The notes under the pieces were generated by a model. That model worked only from the letters and a program-made list of their open reading frames with translations. It did no database searches and was not told the DNA's origin. Shown here piece after piece: positions 36,859 to 42,475 of a stretch of DNA of 64,000 bases (its first letter is position 1; the number at the start of each line of letters is the position of its first letter). The stretch spans positions 62,001 through 126,000 of the forward strand of contig NZ_RCCH01000005.1 of assembly GCF_003663945.1 (NCBI RefSeq), in the 5' to 3' direction. The position numbers and the translations under genes were made by a program. The stretch is from Lacinutrix venerupis. GTDB lineage: Bacteria; Bacteroidota; Bacteroidia; Flavobacteriales; Flavobacteriaceae.

Positions 36859-37209
36859 ATTTGTATTTATATATTGATTCTGAACATATTATACTTAATT
36901 ATAAGGTTCTAACATGAATTCAGAAGACGATTAATATTCTTTTATTTTAACTGAAGTAAACTCTTTTCAGCTTTATATAAAAGCTAACGGTAAAGATAAG
37001 ATTATTATTATGACCTAAAAAATTTAAATGTTTTGGATTTTAAATCTTATTTAATTTCACTTTAAATATTTGTTTATTAAGTTGTTATAAATAAAATCTT
37101 ATAAAATATAATGTATCCATTTTTTAAGCAAACAAAACAATTAAATTTATAAAAAAACCTCACAGATTTTAAAATTTGCGAGGTTAAATATAGTTTATGT
37201 ATTGATCAA
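36859..37209. other. 351-bp spacer between ricT and trhO
   Basis: Very A/T-rich, no ORF above trivial length on either strand. The right end holds the trhO terminator (37150-37185). The left end must contain the promoter of the ricT-gldH-pbp unit; I see no clear TAnnTTTG near the ricT start. No repeats or hairpins otherwise noticed. Confidence 0.55.
37150..37185 (-). terminator. Terminator of trhO
   Basis: AACCTC...GAGGTT with the inner arms CAnATTTT / AAAATnTG; on the minus strand it ends in a T7 run. It sits 24 bp past the trhO stop. Confidence 0.8.
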
Positions 37210-38277
37210 TTATTCTTTTTTAAAGGTTTCAAATATATTTCTCAAATCTTTTTTATAAGGTAAGTGGTCTGCTCTTCCTTTTTTAAAGATATCATTACTA
37301 TTTCCTTGTCCTTTTCTTAATGCTTTCTGCTCTTCAAATGGTAAAGCATGTATTTCTTGACATGTAGTTGAACAACAATTATTCATTTCTTCTTTACAAC
37401 TATCGCACTGTATAAAAAGTAGATGGCAGGCATCGTTTGCGCAATTGGTATGCACATCGAAAGGACTACCGCACTGGTGACATTTTGCTATAACATCGTC
37501 ACTTATTTTTTCGGCACGCCTATCATCGAAAACAAAGTTTTTTCCAATAAATTTATTCTCTATACCTTCTGCATTTACTTGCCTAGTATATTCTATAATA
37601 CCACCTTCTAATTGGTATACGTTTTTAAAACCTTTATGCTTATAATAAGCACTCGCTTTTTCACAACGTATTCCTCCAGTACAATACATTAAAAGGTTTT
37701 TGTCTTCTTTATGTTCTCGTAAATCTGCTTCAATAATATCTAAACTCTCTCTAAATGTATCTACATCTGGAGTAACAGCTCCATCAAAATGACCAATTTC
37801 GCTTTCGTAATGGTTTCGCATATCTACGCAAACTGTGTTTGGGTTAGACAGCATCTCGTTAAAATCTTTAGCTGAAAGATGTATTCCTTTATTTGTAACA
37901 TCAAAAGAATCGTCGTTTAAACCATCGGCTACAATTTTATCTCTCACTTTAACTTTTAGCTTTAAAAAAGACATATTGTCTTGCTCGATAGCAATATTTA
38001 AGCGGATACCATTTAAAAAATCTATGCTATCTAAATGTGTTTTAAAAGCTTCAAAATTATCGGCTGGTAAAGAAAGTTGCGCATTAATACCTTCATGAGC
38101 TATGTAAATACGTCCCAAAACGTCTAAACTGTCCCATTTAATAAATAAATTATCGCGTAATTGTTGTGGATTGCCAATTTGAGCATAAGCGTAAAACGAT
38201 AATGTTAAACGATCTTTTCCTGCTTTTTCTATAAGCTCTGCTCTTTCTTTGGCGCTTAATTTGTTGTACAGTTGCAT
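37210..38277 (-). CDS. trhO: Oxygen-dependent tRNA uridine(34) hydroxylase (TrhO)
   Basis: 355 residues. TrhO makes 5-hydroxyuridine at the wobble position of tRNA. An N-terminal acylphosphatase-like domain is followed by a rhodanese domain with the catalytic Cys in MYCTGGIRCEKASAY. The C-terminal zinc-finger-like region is Cys/His-rich (KCHQCGSPFDVHTNC, FIQCDSCKEEMNNCC). A -7 element lies upstream. The same family is annotated as YceA in E. coli. Confidence 0.92.
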   Translation of the reverse strand: MQLYNKLSAKERAELIEKAGKDRLTLSFYAYAQIGNPQQLRDNLFIKWDSLDVLGRIYIAHEGINAQLSLPADNFEAFKTHLDSIDFLNGIRLNIAIEQDNMSFLKLKVKVRDKIVADGLNDDSFDVTNKGIHLSAKDFNEMLSNPNTVCVDMRNHYESEIGHFDGAVTPDVDTFRESLDIIEADLREHKEDKNLLMYCTGGIRCEKASAYYKHKGFKNVYQLEGGIIEYTRQVNAEGIENKFIGKNFVFDDRRAEKISDDVIAKCHQCGSPFDVHTNCANDACHLLFIQCDSCKEEMNNCCSTTCQEIHALPFEEQKALRKGQGNSNDIFKKGRADHLPYKKDLRNIFETFKKE

Positions 38278-38313
38278 GCTATACTAGTTTTTAAGGTTAA
38301 AGAATAATTTTTG

Positions 38314-38321
38314 CAAAGGTA
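38314..38321 (-). promoter_or_regulatory. Putative -7 element for trhO
   Basis: CAAAGGTA on the + strand reads TACCTTTG on the minus strand, matching TAnnTTTG, 37 bp upstream of the trhO ATG. Confidence 0.45.
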
Positions 38322-38453
38322 CTATATTTAATGAACTGAGCAAGCTTGAGCTTATTAAAGATGTTGGTAATTAAGTTAAAAGCAGCTTCAAAATATTTAA
38401 AACTTATAAAATAAATTTTTGATTGATTTACTTTTAGTTTTAAACAAAAAAAA

Positions 38454-38476
38454 GTCCTTTGCACTTTGCAAAGGAC
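38454..38476 (-). terminator. Strong terminator of the hidden minus-strand unit
   Basis: GTCCTTTGCA-CTT-TGCAAAGGAC, a perfect 10-bp stem. On the minus strand it is followed by a run of nine T (38445-38453 on the + strand are A). It does not belong to recA, which has its own terminator, and trhO starts beyond it, so it marks the end of a separate transcript. Confidence 0.85.
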
Positions 38477-38530
38477 TTTTAATAGACTAACTCGTTATTA
38501 ATTTTTTTTATTTCTAAAAAATTTAACGAG

Positions 38531-38623
38531 CTAACCTCCATCGGCTTTACAGCTGCTGTTTACTAAAACGGCTACTGAAACACCTAATGTTTTTGATGTT
38601 AATATTTTTTTTAAATATCTCAT
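38531..38623 (-). CDS. Candidate 30-residue peptide in an ECF-promoter-driven unit
   Basis: ATG at 38623, TAG at 38531-38533. The product starts MRYLKKILTSKTLGVSVAVL and ends VNSSCKADGG: a basic N-terminus, a mildly hydrophobic centre, one Cys and a C-terminal Gly-Gly. It could be a leader-like or lipidated peptide (the lipobox fit is poor, with Asn at -3), or the transcript could be a non-coding RNA. Support comes from context: an ECF-type promoter 81 bp upstream and two hairpins starting directly after the stop codon. No homologue is recognised. Translation is unproven. Confidence 0.45.
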   Translation of the reverse strand: MRYLKKILTSKTLGVSVAVLVNSSCKADGG

Positions 38624-38703
38624 GTTATTACACTTAAAAATTGAACATGATAGTTTAAAAAGTGAGGTTAATTTTTCTTTTTCATAGCCAAAATTTTCCC
38701 ACC

Positions 38704-38740
38704 TTTATTAGTAGATGTAAAAATGTTTAAAAGGTTGCGT
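38704..38740 (-). promoter_or_regulatory. ECF-type promoter of the hidden unit
   Basis: On the minus strand it reads ACGCAACCTTTTAAAC... with CATCTAC near the end. It is identical at 35 of 37 positions to 39850-39886, the promoter region of the sigma-factor operon. GCAACC is the likely -35 and CATCTA (38712-38717) the likely -10. The expected transcript start is near 38704. Confidence 0.7.
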
Positions 38741-38804
38741 GAGAAATTAAAAAAAAGATTAAAAAAGTGGTATTTTAGCACAACAAATAGATAAAAAAAA
38801 GATT

Positions 38805-39809
38805 ATGAGCAGTGAAAAAGACGCAAAATTAAAAGCACTAAAACTAACTTTAGATAAATTAGATAAAGCCTACGGAAAAGGAACTGTAATGAAAATGAGT
38901 GATGCTGCAGTTGTAGATGTAGAAGCCATTCCTTCTGGTTCTTTAGGTTTAGATATTGCTTTAGGTGTTGGTGGATATCCAAGAGGAAGAGTAATAGAAA
39001 TTTACGGTCCAGAATCTTCTGGTAAAACAACATTAACATTACACGCCATTGCAGAGGCTCAAAAAGCAGGAGGTATTGCAGCATTTATTGATGCAGAACA
39101 TGCATTCGATCGTTTTTATGCTGAAAAATTAGGTGTTGATATAGACAATTTAATAATCTCGCAACCAGATAATGGTGAGCAAGCATTAGAAATTGCAGAT
39201 AATTTAATTCGTTCTGGAGCTATTGATATAGTTGTAGTAGATTCTGTTGCAGCCTTAACACCAAAAAGTGAAATTGAAGGTGAAATGGGAGATAGTAAAA
39301 TGGGATTACACGCTCGTTTAATGTCTCAAGCTTTAAGAAAATTAACAGCATCTATTAGCAAAACCAATTGTACTGTAATTTTTATTAACCAATTACGTGA
39401 AAAAATTGGTGTAATGTTTGGTAACCCAGAAACTACAACTGGTGGTAATGCACTTAAATTTTATGCTTCGGTACGATTAGACATTAGACGCTCTACCCAA
39501 ATAAAAGGTACAGACGGTTCAGTAATGGGTAATAAAACAAGAGTTAAAGTTGTTAAAAACAAAGTAGCACCACCTTTTAAATTAGCTGAGTTTGATATAA
39601 TGTATGGTGAAGGTGTTAGCAAAGTTGGTGAAATTTTAGATGTTGCCGTAGAAAAAGAAATTGTAAAAAAAGCAGGTTCTTGGTTTAGTTATGAAGACAC
39701 CAAATTAGGACAAGGTCGAGACGCTGTAAAAGCTATTATAAAAGACAATCCGGAACTATTTGAAGAGCTTGAACAAAAAATAAAACAAGCAATTAAAGAC
39801 GATATGTAA
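38805..39809 (+). CDS. recA: Recombinase RecA
   Basis: 334 residues, full length. RecA pairs homologous DNA and triggers the SOS response. Walker [11 protein letters not shown], the MAW-type DNA-binding loop L1 ([16 protein letters not shown]), L2 with [17 protein letters not shown], and the C-terminal acidic end. It is probably monocistronic with its own terminator. I see no clear LexA box. The spacer upstream is shared with the divergent hidden unit. Confidence 0.97.
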
Positions 39810-39814
39810 TTATT

Positions 39815-39845
39815 AAATCCCGATTTTTTCGGGATTTTTTTATTT
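39815..39845 (+). terminator. Terminator of recA
   Basis: AAATCCCGA / TCGGGATTT hairpin with a T5 loop and following T tract, directly after recA and just before the ECF promoter block. Confidence 0.88.
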
Positions 39846-39849
39846 TTAT

Positions 39850-39886
39850 ACGCAACCTTTTAAACATTTTCACATCTACTTATAAA
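39850..39886 (+). promoter_or_regulatory. ECF-type promoter of the lipoprotein-sigma-anti-sigma operon
   Basis: ACGCAACC (-35-like) and CATCTA at 39873-39878 (-10-like), separated by about 15 bp. It is repeated in 38704-38740 on the other strand with only two differences. The position, 24 bp before the first gene of an operon that encodes an ECF sigma factor, suggests autoregulation by that sigma factor. Confidence 0.7.
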
Positions 39887-39909
39887 TACATGTACAACAG
39901 TAACTAGAA

Positions 39910-40317
39910 ATGAAAAAAATTATTGTTTTAATAATTGGCCTTATATTGTTCTCTTGCAGCACAAATGACGATTCTTTTGTAATGTACCAAGACCCAATGC
40001 CAGTTGAATCGGTAATTTTACCAGATGAATTTGTTTTAAATGAAACTTATGAAATTACAGTAACTTATTTAAAACCAACTTCATGTCACACTTTTAGTGA
40101 TATATTTTATAAAAAAAACCAAAATAATAGAACAGTTGTTATTATTGGTACTGTTTTTCAAAATAACACAAACTGTGAAGAGTTAAATACACCATTTGAG
40201 GCTAGTTTCAATTTTACAGCAACAGAAACTGGTTCTTATGTATTTAAGTTTTGGGAAAGCAAAAATGATGAAGGAGAAGATGTTTATTTAACAATAGAAG
40301 TTCCTGTATTAGGATAA
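39910..40317 (+). CDS. Small lipoprotein, first gene of the ECF operon
   Basis: 135 residues. Signal with lipobox LFSC (Cys17), then TNDDSFV, the common acidic motif after lipid Cys that favours surface export in Bacteroidota. The mature part is a beta-rich single domain with two cysteines (TSCHTFSD, NTNCEELN) that could form a disulphide. No family is recognised. It lies 26 bp upstream of the sigma gene and under the same promoter, so it may act in sensing or in the response. Confidence 0.75.
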   Translation: MKKIIVLIIGLILFSCSTNDDSFVMYQDPMPVESVILPDEFVLNETYEITVTYLKPTSCHTFSDIFYKKNQNNRTVVIIGTVFQNNTNCEELNTPFEASFNFTATETGSYVFKFWESKNDEGEDVYLTIEVPVLG

Positions 40318-40343
40318 TTACTAATTAAAAACATGGATTTAAT

Positions 40344-40889
40344 TTGAGTTTAGAGAAACTCATACAAAATTGTAAGATTAATGATGCTAAAGCACAAAGC
40401 GAACTATATAAGCTCTACTCAAGCAAATTGTTTTCTTTAAGCTTAAAGTATTCACGCAACTATGCAGAAGCAGAAGATAATTTACAAGATGCGTTTATTA
40501 CTATTTTTAAAAAAATAGAACAATATAAAAACAAAGGTTCTTTTGAAGGTTGGTTAAAACGAATTACTATTAATACCGCATTACAGCGTTATAGAACACA
40601 AGGTGTTTTTGATATTGTAAATGAAGATTTAATTGAGGATGAAGCAATTACTATTGAAGATGAAGATAACATCCCTTTAGATTATTTATTAAAAATTATT
40701 CAAGAATTACCAGACCGTTACCGTTTGGTTTTTAACCTATATGTTATGGATGGCTATTCTCATAAAGACATAGCACAAATGTTAAATATTACATCTGGAA
40801 CATCAAAATCTAACTTAGCAAGAGCTAGACAGACCTTAAAAAATAAAATAATAGAATATAAAACGAGATTAAATTCTCAATCTTTATAA
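40344..40889 (+). CDS. ECF-subfamily RNA polymerase sigma factor
   Basis: 181 residues. Region 2 is at ~20-90 with YAEAEDNLQDAFITIFKKI and region 4 at ~125-178 with LPDRYRLVFNLYVMDGYSHKDI then a helix-turn-helix. The start is the TTG at 40344; the ATG at 40333 is out of frame and ends after four codons in a TGA that overlaps the TTG. It ends in TAATG overlap with the anti-sigma gene. It should direct RNA polymerase to promoters of the GCAACC/CATCTA type that sit in front of its own operon and of the hidden unit near recA. That link is inferred. Confidence 0.9.
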   Translation: MSLEKLIQNCKINDAKAQSELYKLYSSKLFSLSLKYSRNYAEAEDNLQDAFITIFKKIEQYKNKGSFEGWLKRITINTALQRYRTQGVFDIVNEDLIEDEAITIEDEDNIPLDYLLKIIQELPDRYRLVFNLYVMDGYSHKDIAQMLNITSGTSKSNLARARQTLKNKIIEYKTRLNSQSL

Positions 40890-42475
40890 TGAGTGATAAA
40901 AAACAAATAGACAGACTTTTTCAAGAAAAGTTTAAAGATTTTGAAGCCAAGCCTAGCAATAAAGTTTGGGAAAATATTCAAAGTAAAATAAACCATCAAC
41001 CAGAGAAAACTAAAACAGTTTTTCCTCTTTGGCTACGTTTAAGTGCTATTGCAGCTATATTGCTTTTACTATTTTCTGTTGGAAACTTTATATTTAGTAA
41101 TCAAAATACCAAAACCAATACAACTATTGTAAATACTAATAGCCAAAAAGACAACACACTTACTAATACTAAAAATAGTTCTGTTAAAAACAATGATAAT
41201 TCTTTACAAAAAAATATAAATAAAGAAAATAAAACAATTACTAATCCAGTAGCTGCTTCAAGTAAAGATAAAATTGAAACTAATAATTCAGAAATTAATT
41301 CTTCTTCAAATTCTTTAAACCCTAAAAACAGTTTAAATAGAAAAAATCTAGGTAATAAAAATTTATATAATGTTGCAAAAAGTGCAACAAGCAAAAATGA
41401 TTTTATTAACCAAAACAAACCACTAAAATCGACTAATAATAATTTAACGAATAAAGCAATTACAAATAATAATTCTATTGTTAATAGCACACTAAACGAA
41501 ACTAAAACAAATCAAAATGCTACTGTTTTAAATGGTAACACTAGCAATAAAACTATTAATTCTAATAAAATTGATATAAATAGTAAAGATATTATACAAG
41601 ACAATGTAGCAACTAATGCAAATGTTACTTCAACTAAAAGTGAAACGGAAAAAGAAGAAGAAAAATTGATGGAGCTAGACAGCGCAAACTCGTCTAACGC
41701 CATAGAAGAAGCTATTGCCAAGATTGAAGATCTTGATGAAAAAGAAGAAAAAATAAACAGGTGGACGGTAAACGCAAATGCCGCACCTGTTTATTATAAT
41801 ACTCTTGGCAAAGGTTCTCACATTCACGATCAATTTATTGACAATCCTAAAAATGGAGAAGTAAACACAAGCTATGGAATAAATGTTGGTTATGCCCTAA
41901 ACGATAAATTAAAAGTACGATCTGGAATTAATAAACTTAATTTAAGCTACGATACTGCAAACATTATTGTTTATGAAAACGTTACTAATACACCTAGCAA
42001 TGTACCTTTACGTAATATAAACTTTATACCTACAAGTAGTGGTCAAAATATATCTGTATTAAGTTCTAATAGTTTTTCTGTTCAACAAATTAGTGAAGTT
42101 GTTAATGATAATTTAAATGCTGCACTAAGCCAAAGACTTAGTTATTTAGAAGTTCCTTTAGAACTTGAATACTCTGTAATAAAAAAACGTTTTGGATTAA
42201 ACTTAATAGGCGGATTTAGCACATTCTTTTTAAGTGATAATGAAGTTGTCACTGAAGTTGAAAATAGAAAAACAAAAATTGGAGAGGCAAATAATATTAA
42301 TAATTTAAGTTTTAGTGCTAATGCTGGAATTGGTATAGATTATAAATTTAGTAAAACTGTTAAATTTAATTTAGAGCCAACTTTCAAGTATCAAATTAAT
42401 GCTTACAACGAAACCTCTGGCAATTTTAGACCATACATTATTGGTGTATATACTGGTATTAGTTATAAATTTTAA
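40889..42475 (+). CDS. Anti-sigma-type protein fused to a beta-barrel-like domain
   Basis: 528 residues. The N-terminus (1-40, KQIDRLFQEKFKDFEAKPSNK then VWENIQSKI) resembles the cytoplasmic part of Bacteroidota anti-sigma proteins; it has no ZAS zinc motif. One transmembrane helix is at ~46-69. Residues ~70-285 are a long Asn/Ser/Thr/Lys-rich linker. The C-terminal ~240 residues look like an outer-membrane beta-barrel domain and end in GVYTGISYKF with a terminal Phe. Its start overlaps the sigma stop (TAATG). It likely holds the sigma factor at the membrane until a signal cuts it; RseP (61358) would be a candidate protease. Confidence 0.8.
   Translation: MSDKKQIDRLFQEKFKDFEAKPSNKVWENIQSKINHQPEKTKTVFPLWLRLSAIAAILLLLFSVGNFIFSNQNTKTNTTIVNTNSQKDNTLTNTKNSSVKNNDNSLQKNINKENKTITNPVAASSKDKIETNNSEINSSSNSLNPKNSLNRKNLGNKNLYNVAKSATSKNDFINQNKPLKSTNNNLTNKAITNNNSIVNSTLNETKTNQNATVLNGNTSNKTINSNKIDINSKDIIQDNVATNANVTSTKSETEKEEEKLMELDSANSSNAIEEAIAKIEDLDEKEEKINRWTVNANAAPVYYNTLGKGSHIHDQFIDNPKNGEVNTSYGINVGYALNDKLKVRSGINKLNLSYDTANIIVYENVTNTPSNVPLRNINFIPTSSGQNISVLSSNSFSVQQISEVVNDNLNAALSQRLSYLEVPLELEYSVIKKRFGLNLIGGFSTFFLSDNEVVTEVENRKTKIGEANNINNLSFSANAGIGIDYKFSKTVKFNLEPTFKYQINAYNETSGNFRPYIIGVYTGISYKF

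Follow-up and report, generated by a model that had tools for sequence, protein, structure and literature searches.

A predicted ECF sigma-dependent small RNA gene beside recA in Lacinutrix venerupis, with a conserved 30-codon reading frame whose stop codon lies in a hairpin

We analyzed a stretch of 64,000 nucleotides (nt) from Lacinutrix venerupis (assembly GCF_003663945.1, contig NZ_RCCH01000005.1, positions 62,001 to 126,000; hereafter the window, whose own numbering is used throughout), in which the minus strand of the gap between recA and trhO holds a candidate small RNA (sRNA) gene with a 30-codon open reading frame (ORF). A first-pass annotation, made from the letters alone, had proposed that this gap gives rise to a transcript driven by an extracytoplasmic function (ECF) sigma factor and serving as a regulatory RNA, a peptide message, or both. 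The promoter-like block that it described was present as an ECF-type promoter at 38712-38740, in which ACGCAACC (38740-38733) is separated by a spacer of 14 nt from ACATCTA (38718-38712), and which has one close twin in the genome. Transcription is predicted to start near 38705 and to yield a small transcript of about 260 nt (38446-38705), both ends of which are predictions. The conserved leader contains a 5-codon mini-ORF, ATGAAAAAGAAAAATTAA (MKKKN-stop, 38668-38685), and is followed by the 30-codon ORF at 38531-38623, found where it had been claimed, which encodes the peptide MRYLKKILTSKTLGVSVAVLVNSSCKADGG and belongs to a conserved family with coding-like substitutions. The hairpin, which had been placed directly after the stop codon, instead includes it: it extends over approximately 38485-38536, covaries among relatives and has a 5′ arm that contains the stop codon together with the final Gly codon. 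An intrinsic terminator (38446-38480) was likewise present, although its stem has 14 pairs (38480-38450), with a loop of 3 nt and a run of eight T, rather than the 10-bp stem and T9 run first described.

The predicted transcript is strongly structured, with a folding energy of -63.2 kcal/mol and z = -5.3 (256 nt folded), and none of 200 shuffled sequences was equally stable. The 1.7-kb region holds three terminator-like sites, compared with 0.6 expected, and one of them is the terminator of the peptide unit. No Rfam family reached its gathering score in the interval 37000-41500 of the window or in 16 loci. The mini-ORF is retained across most of the genus alignment, and the leader is shorter in loci such as L037, L042, L047, L049 and L081, where TTGCT directly abuts the peptide start. 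The leader (TTGCTATGAAAAAGAAAAATTA and its flank) has one more copy in the genome (L003, G000:C4:323225-323265, E 2.6e-7), on the opposite strand, past the 3′ end of a gene judged dnaJ-like by eye, and with no obvious ECF promoter; a 24-base leader pattern with at most three mismatches gave two matches compared with three in the control, so this copy may be due to chance.

Close relatives do not lack both the ORF and its promoter, an outcome that would have spoken against the first-pass annotation: the peptide was found in all 13 genus genomes. The suggested search of other Flavobacteriaceae recovered it at E <= 1e-3 in 64 of 397 sampled family genomes, the weakest (G224) being a partial match, and it is also found in 36 named loci that come partly from the same genomes. 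The genera concerned are Lacinutrix, Bizionia, Olleya, Aurantibacter, Psychroserpens, Hanstruepera, Mangrovimonas, Mesoflavibacter, Winogradskyella and Tamlana, together with unclassified relatives. Among 56 distinct loci, the promoter precedes the peptide in 55 (the exception is L043) and a terminator follows the ORF in all 56. RecA adjoins the peptide gene in 63 of 63 loci (L023-L085; L061 aligns at residues 122-334 only), and in 61 of these the peptide gene is followed, in the same orientation, by trhO; the exceptions are L040 and L051, the second of which is cut by a contig end. Searches of the peptide against Pfam, NCBIfam and PADLOC returned no family at E <= 1e-3.

Because short peptides escape such searches, we inspected the recA flanks of 59 genomes. 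These loci (29 + 30) were hand-chosen, mostly from genomes without a strong peptide match; the first batch comprised 30 genomes, one of which gave no recA, and the second also took in G185, G359 and G274, which have a strong match, and four genomes of the most sampled genus. A divergent ECF-type promoter was borne by 34 of the 59 loci. An ORF of the right length ending in DGG-stop, at <=260 nt, occurred in 12 of these 34 (three of the 12 from genomes already matched), compared with one of the 25 loci without the promoter. The same search limited to 420 nt gave 11 of 34, missing L177, against 0.0 expected in shuffles, which cover this version only.

In total, 68 peptides were read, namely 56 and 12 divergent ones, four of the latter coming from ORFs seen in recA flanks and eight from the DGG-stop pattern. 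Sixty-three have 30 residues, three have 28, one has 29 and one has 31; this range depends on the choice of start codon because several starts were chosen among alternatives (L173, L177 and L195 allow longer starts, and L106, L188, L189 and L192 start with GTG or TTG). The C-terminal K/R-x-D-G-G end is present in 68 of 68 peptides, although D-G-G is a selected property of the eight that were found through it. Thus, of the Cys- and Gly-Gly-containing peptide first envisaged, the terminal D-G-G held throughout, whereas Cys is frequent but not invariant, with C[KR]xDGG in 63 of 68. The reading of NSSC as a lipoprotein or lipopeptide signal was rejected, as a lipobox precedes Cys in only two of the 68. 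Three loci were left out of the 68. L174, which ends in DGG-stop without a promoter, was treated as a chance occurrence; L187, upstream of recA, is a likely relative with a 28-codon ORF ending in R-L-D-D-G and the usual hairpin partner sequence; and L167, also upstream of recA, holds an apparently decayed copy of the peptide.

In a set of 62 distinct 30-codon ORFs, which includes nine of the 12 divergent ones, the synonymous share of codon differences was 0.301, compared with 0.159 +- 0.025 (at most 0.223) when the columns were shuffled 200 times. Stops interrupt both of the other frames in all 62, while the openness of the coding frame itself is given by the selection. With this coding signature and a conserved reading frame, the unit is a small-protein gene as judged by comparison of sequences, and we consider it highly probable that the peptide is translated.

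The stop codon lies within the 5′ arm of the hairpin in all 60 loci folded; in 58 of them every base of the codon is paired, and in L106 and L116 one or two bases are. In the 12 copies found by synteny, four of which are among the 60, all three stop bases lie in the arm in nine and one or two in L106, L116 and L192. Over 54 aligned sequences (six near-duplicates of the 60 were left out), the covariation score of the hairpin was 0.168, compared with 0.134 +- 0.006 in shuffles, none of 500 scoring as high; the structure was set from single-sequence folds, and the pairs were counted on a MAFFT alignment, not one fitted to the structure. Sliding the hairpin partner reduced the paired cells from 85.8% to 20-49%. 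Additionally, of the 52 cases across genera in which codon 27 (38545-38543) encodes Ala, 50 use GCC, while GCC makes up 13% of Ala codons in the 39 window ORFs of at least 200 codons. No p-value is attached because the rows are related, but this preference points to a further constraint at the nucleotide level.

The twin of the promoter lies on the plus strand at 39850-39878, beyond recA (38805-39809, plus strand, divergent from the unit), and precedes an operon of a lipoprotein gene (39910-40317), an ECF sigma factor gene (40344-40889) and an anti-sigma factor gene (40889-42475). In the 3.12-Mb genome, the 29-mer with two free positions and up to three mismatches matched these two sites only, and its reversed-pattern control matched none. 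Among the named loci, the promoter stands upstream of the sigma operon in all 34 in which the sigma gene is present (the strict pattern matches 31 of them, and a looser one the other three); two further named loci hold no sigma gene. Among the 59 recA loci, the examined stretch includes the sigma gene in 50, of which 34 have the divergent promoter, and lacks that gene in nine, none of which has the promoter (Fisher p = 1.6e-4, kinship ignored). The promoter of the peptide unit thus resembles that of the sigma operon, which by sequence places the unit in an ECF-sigma regulon. The suggestion of the first-pass annotation that the sigma factor encoded at 40344 drives the transcript gains comparative support from the twin before its operon and from the conservation of the promoter pair across genera, and sigma-dependent transcription of the unit appears very likely.

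The exact pattern ACGCAACC-N{14,18}-GCATCTA gave 30 matches in 10 of the 13 genus genomes, all with a 14-nt spacer, and none in the control; our own genome has no exact match because its -10 box starts with A. Seventeen of the 30 flank recA. The remaining 13, from eight genomes, each lie within approximately 35 nt upstream of an exported-protein gene, and 12 of these proteins have lipoprotein-like signals (judged by eye) and one has a plain signal peptide. A looser pattern with up to two mismatches was at chance level in our own genome (seven matches compared with eight in the control); its sole exact match is a third site of the promoter type (L005, G000:C5:280917-280943), with a spacer one base shorter, 16 nt ahead of a gene for a large exported protein. 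Other ECF-type promoters were seen near recA in relatives. In Tamlana (L080:3559-4000), recA and the peptide gene are separated by an additional small gene, which is lipoprotein-like and has an ECF-type promoter to itself. In L193 and L194, which belong to the most sampled genus (perhaps Flavobacterium), a pair of ECF-type promoters lies 100-600 nt after recA, the second preceding a basic 34-codon ORF common to both (MKEK...LRFIS[DE]KIIHR).

Domain searches found regions 2 and 4 in the sigma factor; no ECF21 model appeared among the family matches seen, and the best NCBIfam equivalog matches were below their cut-off. The anti-sigma factor is predicted to have short N-terminal helices, a helix at residues 47-70 taken as transmembrane, a disordered tether and a C-terminal beta-barrel at residues 292-528. 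Its AlphaFold2 model, built with 16 sequences, has a predicted template modelling score of 0.45; by predicted local distance difference test (pLDDT), most of the barrel is at 85 or above but residues 361-410 are at 51-75, and the tether is near 30. The best matches of the barrel in the PDB are outer-membrane barrels such as OmpA. The factor is thus predicted from this model to span the inner and the outer membrane, as in the Dma/Reo factors of Bacteroidota. In the accessible parts of the cited reports, Dma factors have the same architecture and are partnered with ECF21 sigmas in Bacteroides thetaiotaomicron (PMC13088901), and Reo, also of this architecture, is a proposed sensor of outer-membrane stress and a proposed regulator of NigD lipoproteins in Phocaeicola vulgatus (PMC13114119, PMC9308784). 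The lipoprotein at 39910 has a predicted beta-strand fold. Its family matched the NigD1/NigD2 model in three of 24 members, weakly (best E 0.016), and the Riean_0653 model in 14 of 24 (best E 0.00084); no convincing Pfam match and no PDB fold match at E <= 0.001 was obtained, and a NigD identity was therefore not established by NigD models, Pfam or PDB fold search.

Some relatives keep the promoter and the terminator without the peptide. A short type of approximately 100 nt has no such ORF (L093, L094 and L168-L171), and a long type has a different conserved long stem and no peptide (L099-L101, L103, L104 and L176). The retention of both signals therefore suggests that the RNA matters beyond the peptide, though it does not prove it. 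In keeping with a trans-acting sRNA, the unit appears from its signals to be an independent transcript with its own intrinsic terminator.

We propose that the unit is, on balance, probably a gene of a small outer-membrane-stress regulon, approximately 260 nt long, whose products are a structured small RNA together with a peptide of 30 residues, because its ECF promoter is conserved and shared with the sigma operon, its ORF is conserved as well, its stop-codon hairpin covaries and it has a terminator of its own. The conserved promoter, the coding signature and the covarying hairpin together lend strong comparative support to the earlier idea of an ECF-driven transcript acting as sRNA, peptide message or both. 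In the putative mechanism, the anti-sigma factor, predicted to span both membranes, would sense damage and release the sigma factor, which would then transcribe the operon that encodes it, a small number of genes for exported lipoproteins and the ~260-nt RNA. By analogy with the sigma-E-dependent sRNAs of enteric bacteria, the RNA would most likely act in trans on envelope mRNAs, to which we give an even chance. The ORF would be translated, and a ribosome at the stop codon would open the hairpin, so that translation and the nascent K-x-D-G-G end determine which segment of the RNA is exposed. We regard such gating of the hairpin by translation as tentative and rather doubtful. A more specific form of it, in which the 30-residue chain is of just sufficient length to remain in the ribosome tunnel, K-x-D-G-G slows termination and the waiting ribosome keeps the hairpin open, seems unlikely; if it were true, a silencing segment of the RNA would become available only when outer-membrane stress and active translation coincide.

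Several observations weigh against this proposal or parts of it. The N-terminal helices and the transmembrane helix of the anti-sigma factor were modelled with low confidence (pLDDT 50-68). Further exact promoter copies away from recA occur in eight of the 13 genus genomes, and therefore the sigma factor does not serve this RNA alone. The body of the RNA differs greatly among the peptide, short and long types, which leaves one shared pairing site unproven; motifs like CTATGAAA and like CTAACTC recur across the RNA types, in 17 and 15 of the 34 promoter-bearing recA loci, respectively. As for the hairpin, six of its 13 pairs are changed on both sides, a number that was reached by six of 500 shuffles, and a slide of -1 yields 20 two-sided cells compared with 18 in register. 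Pairing is weak at the two innermost positions (columns 19-91 and 20-90), which are unpaired in 24 and 37 of the 54 sequences. When 395 genomes of the order were searched with the model of the peptide-type hairpin, 13 matched at E <= 0.1; eight of these are in the family, and the five matches outside it are weak (E 0.016-0.096). Moreover, the paired hairpin hides both of its arms, which makes gating possible rather than expected.

The best rival is a plain short mRNA whose sole product is the peptide, which might be an effector that is secreted or sits in the inner membrane, might regulate the sigma/anti-sigma pair by feedback or might be a signal peptide, for example, with the hairpin merely shielding the 3′ end. 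We consider this possible though not probable. It accounts well for the strong coding signature and the near-constant ORF length, and in many copies a basic start and a hydrophobic middle (median best 15-residue Kyte-Doolittle value, 1.7) precede the conserved C-terminal end. However, hydrophobicity is not conserved (0.07 in L116 and 0.49 in L106), the promoter and terminator are kept in relatives without such a peptide, the stop-codon hairpin covaries, and the GCC bias at codon 27 points to an additional constraint on the RNA. The opposite view, a non-coding sRNA with an accidental ORF, would agree with the strong RNA structure, the nucleotide-level conservation at the end of the ORF and the absence or decay of the peptide in some relatives, but it has very little probability in view of the synonymous bias and of a K/R-x-D-G-G end that is constant over divergent genera despite different stop codons.

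Two further readings turn on the neighboring genes. The next gene downstream, trhO (tRNA uridine-34 hydroxylase, 37210-38277, minus strand), could be attenuated by a leader peptide, as its conserved position and orientation would allow. We take yceA of Flavobacterium psychrophilum to be a TrhO relative. An ECF-type (SM6) promoter lies ahead of this rhodanese-related gene according to the part of the source available (PMC9723704). However, trhO is apparently a separate unit: TACCTTTG (38314-38321, minus strand) fits the TAnnTTTG -7 box of a separate housekeeping promoter, and attenuation is most improbable because such a box precedes trhO, at 100 nt or less, in 53 of 54 loci. Moreover, the terminator is separate from the stop-codon hairpin, and the peptide gene is present where trhO was not found in the examined stretch or lies farther away (L040 and L038). 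Alternatively, the unit might be a transcription device in which firing of the divergent ECF promoter tunes recA, whose start codon lies 65 nt from the promoter, a distance that is similar in many relatives. This reading is scarcely probable either, since it leaves the ORF, the hairpin and the terminator unexplained, and in Tamlana (L080) another promoter and gene stand between the peptide unit and recA.

Sigma-E-dependent sRNAs of enteric bacteria, such as MicA, RybB and MicL, act on envelope mRNAs. The proposed RNA resembles them, as far as the sequence tells, in being small, in having an envelope-stress ECF promoter and its own terminator, and in belonging to an envelope-protein regulon; it differs in phylum, in the conserved ORF on the RNA and in the presumed two-membrane anti-sigma sensor, and the likeness is one of description. 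TnaC is a leader peptide that arrests the ribosome at its stop codon. The unit shares with it a short peptide, a conserved C-terminal end and RNA structure at the stop codon, but here no gene is evidently under readthrough control. SgrS/SgrT is a dual-function sRNA. Like SgrS/SgrT and RyhB/RyhP, the latter named in the title of PMC5331693, the unit combines a structured small RNA with a short ORF, whereas the stop codon inside a covarying hairpin, the near-constant ORF length and the fixed C-terminal end set it apart.

The sigma operon resembles the EcfO-Reo and Das-Dma systems of Bacteroides and Phocaeicola, which, in the portions of the reports at hand, also have an anti-sigma factor with an N-terminal domain, a transmembrane helix, a disordered tether and a C-terminal barrel, and surface lipoproteins in the regulon (PMC13088901, PMC9308784, PMC13114119). 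The same portions describe upregulation of the sigma gene itself on induction, the counterpart of which would be the promoter twin before the sigma operon, and they mention no sRNA or micropeptide. The nearest published object in the literature that we found is Rfp11 of F. psychrophilum, given in the available part of its description as a putative regulatory RNA with an ECF-type (SM6) promoter, a strong predicted structure and conservation in other species (PMC9723704); we liken the two by description and not by sequence. The divergent promoter was absent from all four genomes taken from the most sampled genus, which may be Flavobacterium. A literature search with partial journal coverage found no description of the peptide or its RNA gene.

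What appears to be new here is a small RNA gene, putatively under a stress sigma factor, that carries a conserved micropeptide whose stop codon belongs to an RNA structure. It offers a case of a stop codon forming part of a covarying RNA structure and a clear instance of a conserved family of genes, each about 30 codons long, without a Pfam, NCBIfam or Rfam match, and as a short, clearly bounded gene it is well suited to genetic tests. The Dma/Reo outer-membrane stress systems of Bacteroidota are described through their proteins only in the accessible parts of the cited work, and a conserved RNA and micropeptide member would give Bacteroidota a counterpart to the sigma-E-dependent sRNAs.
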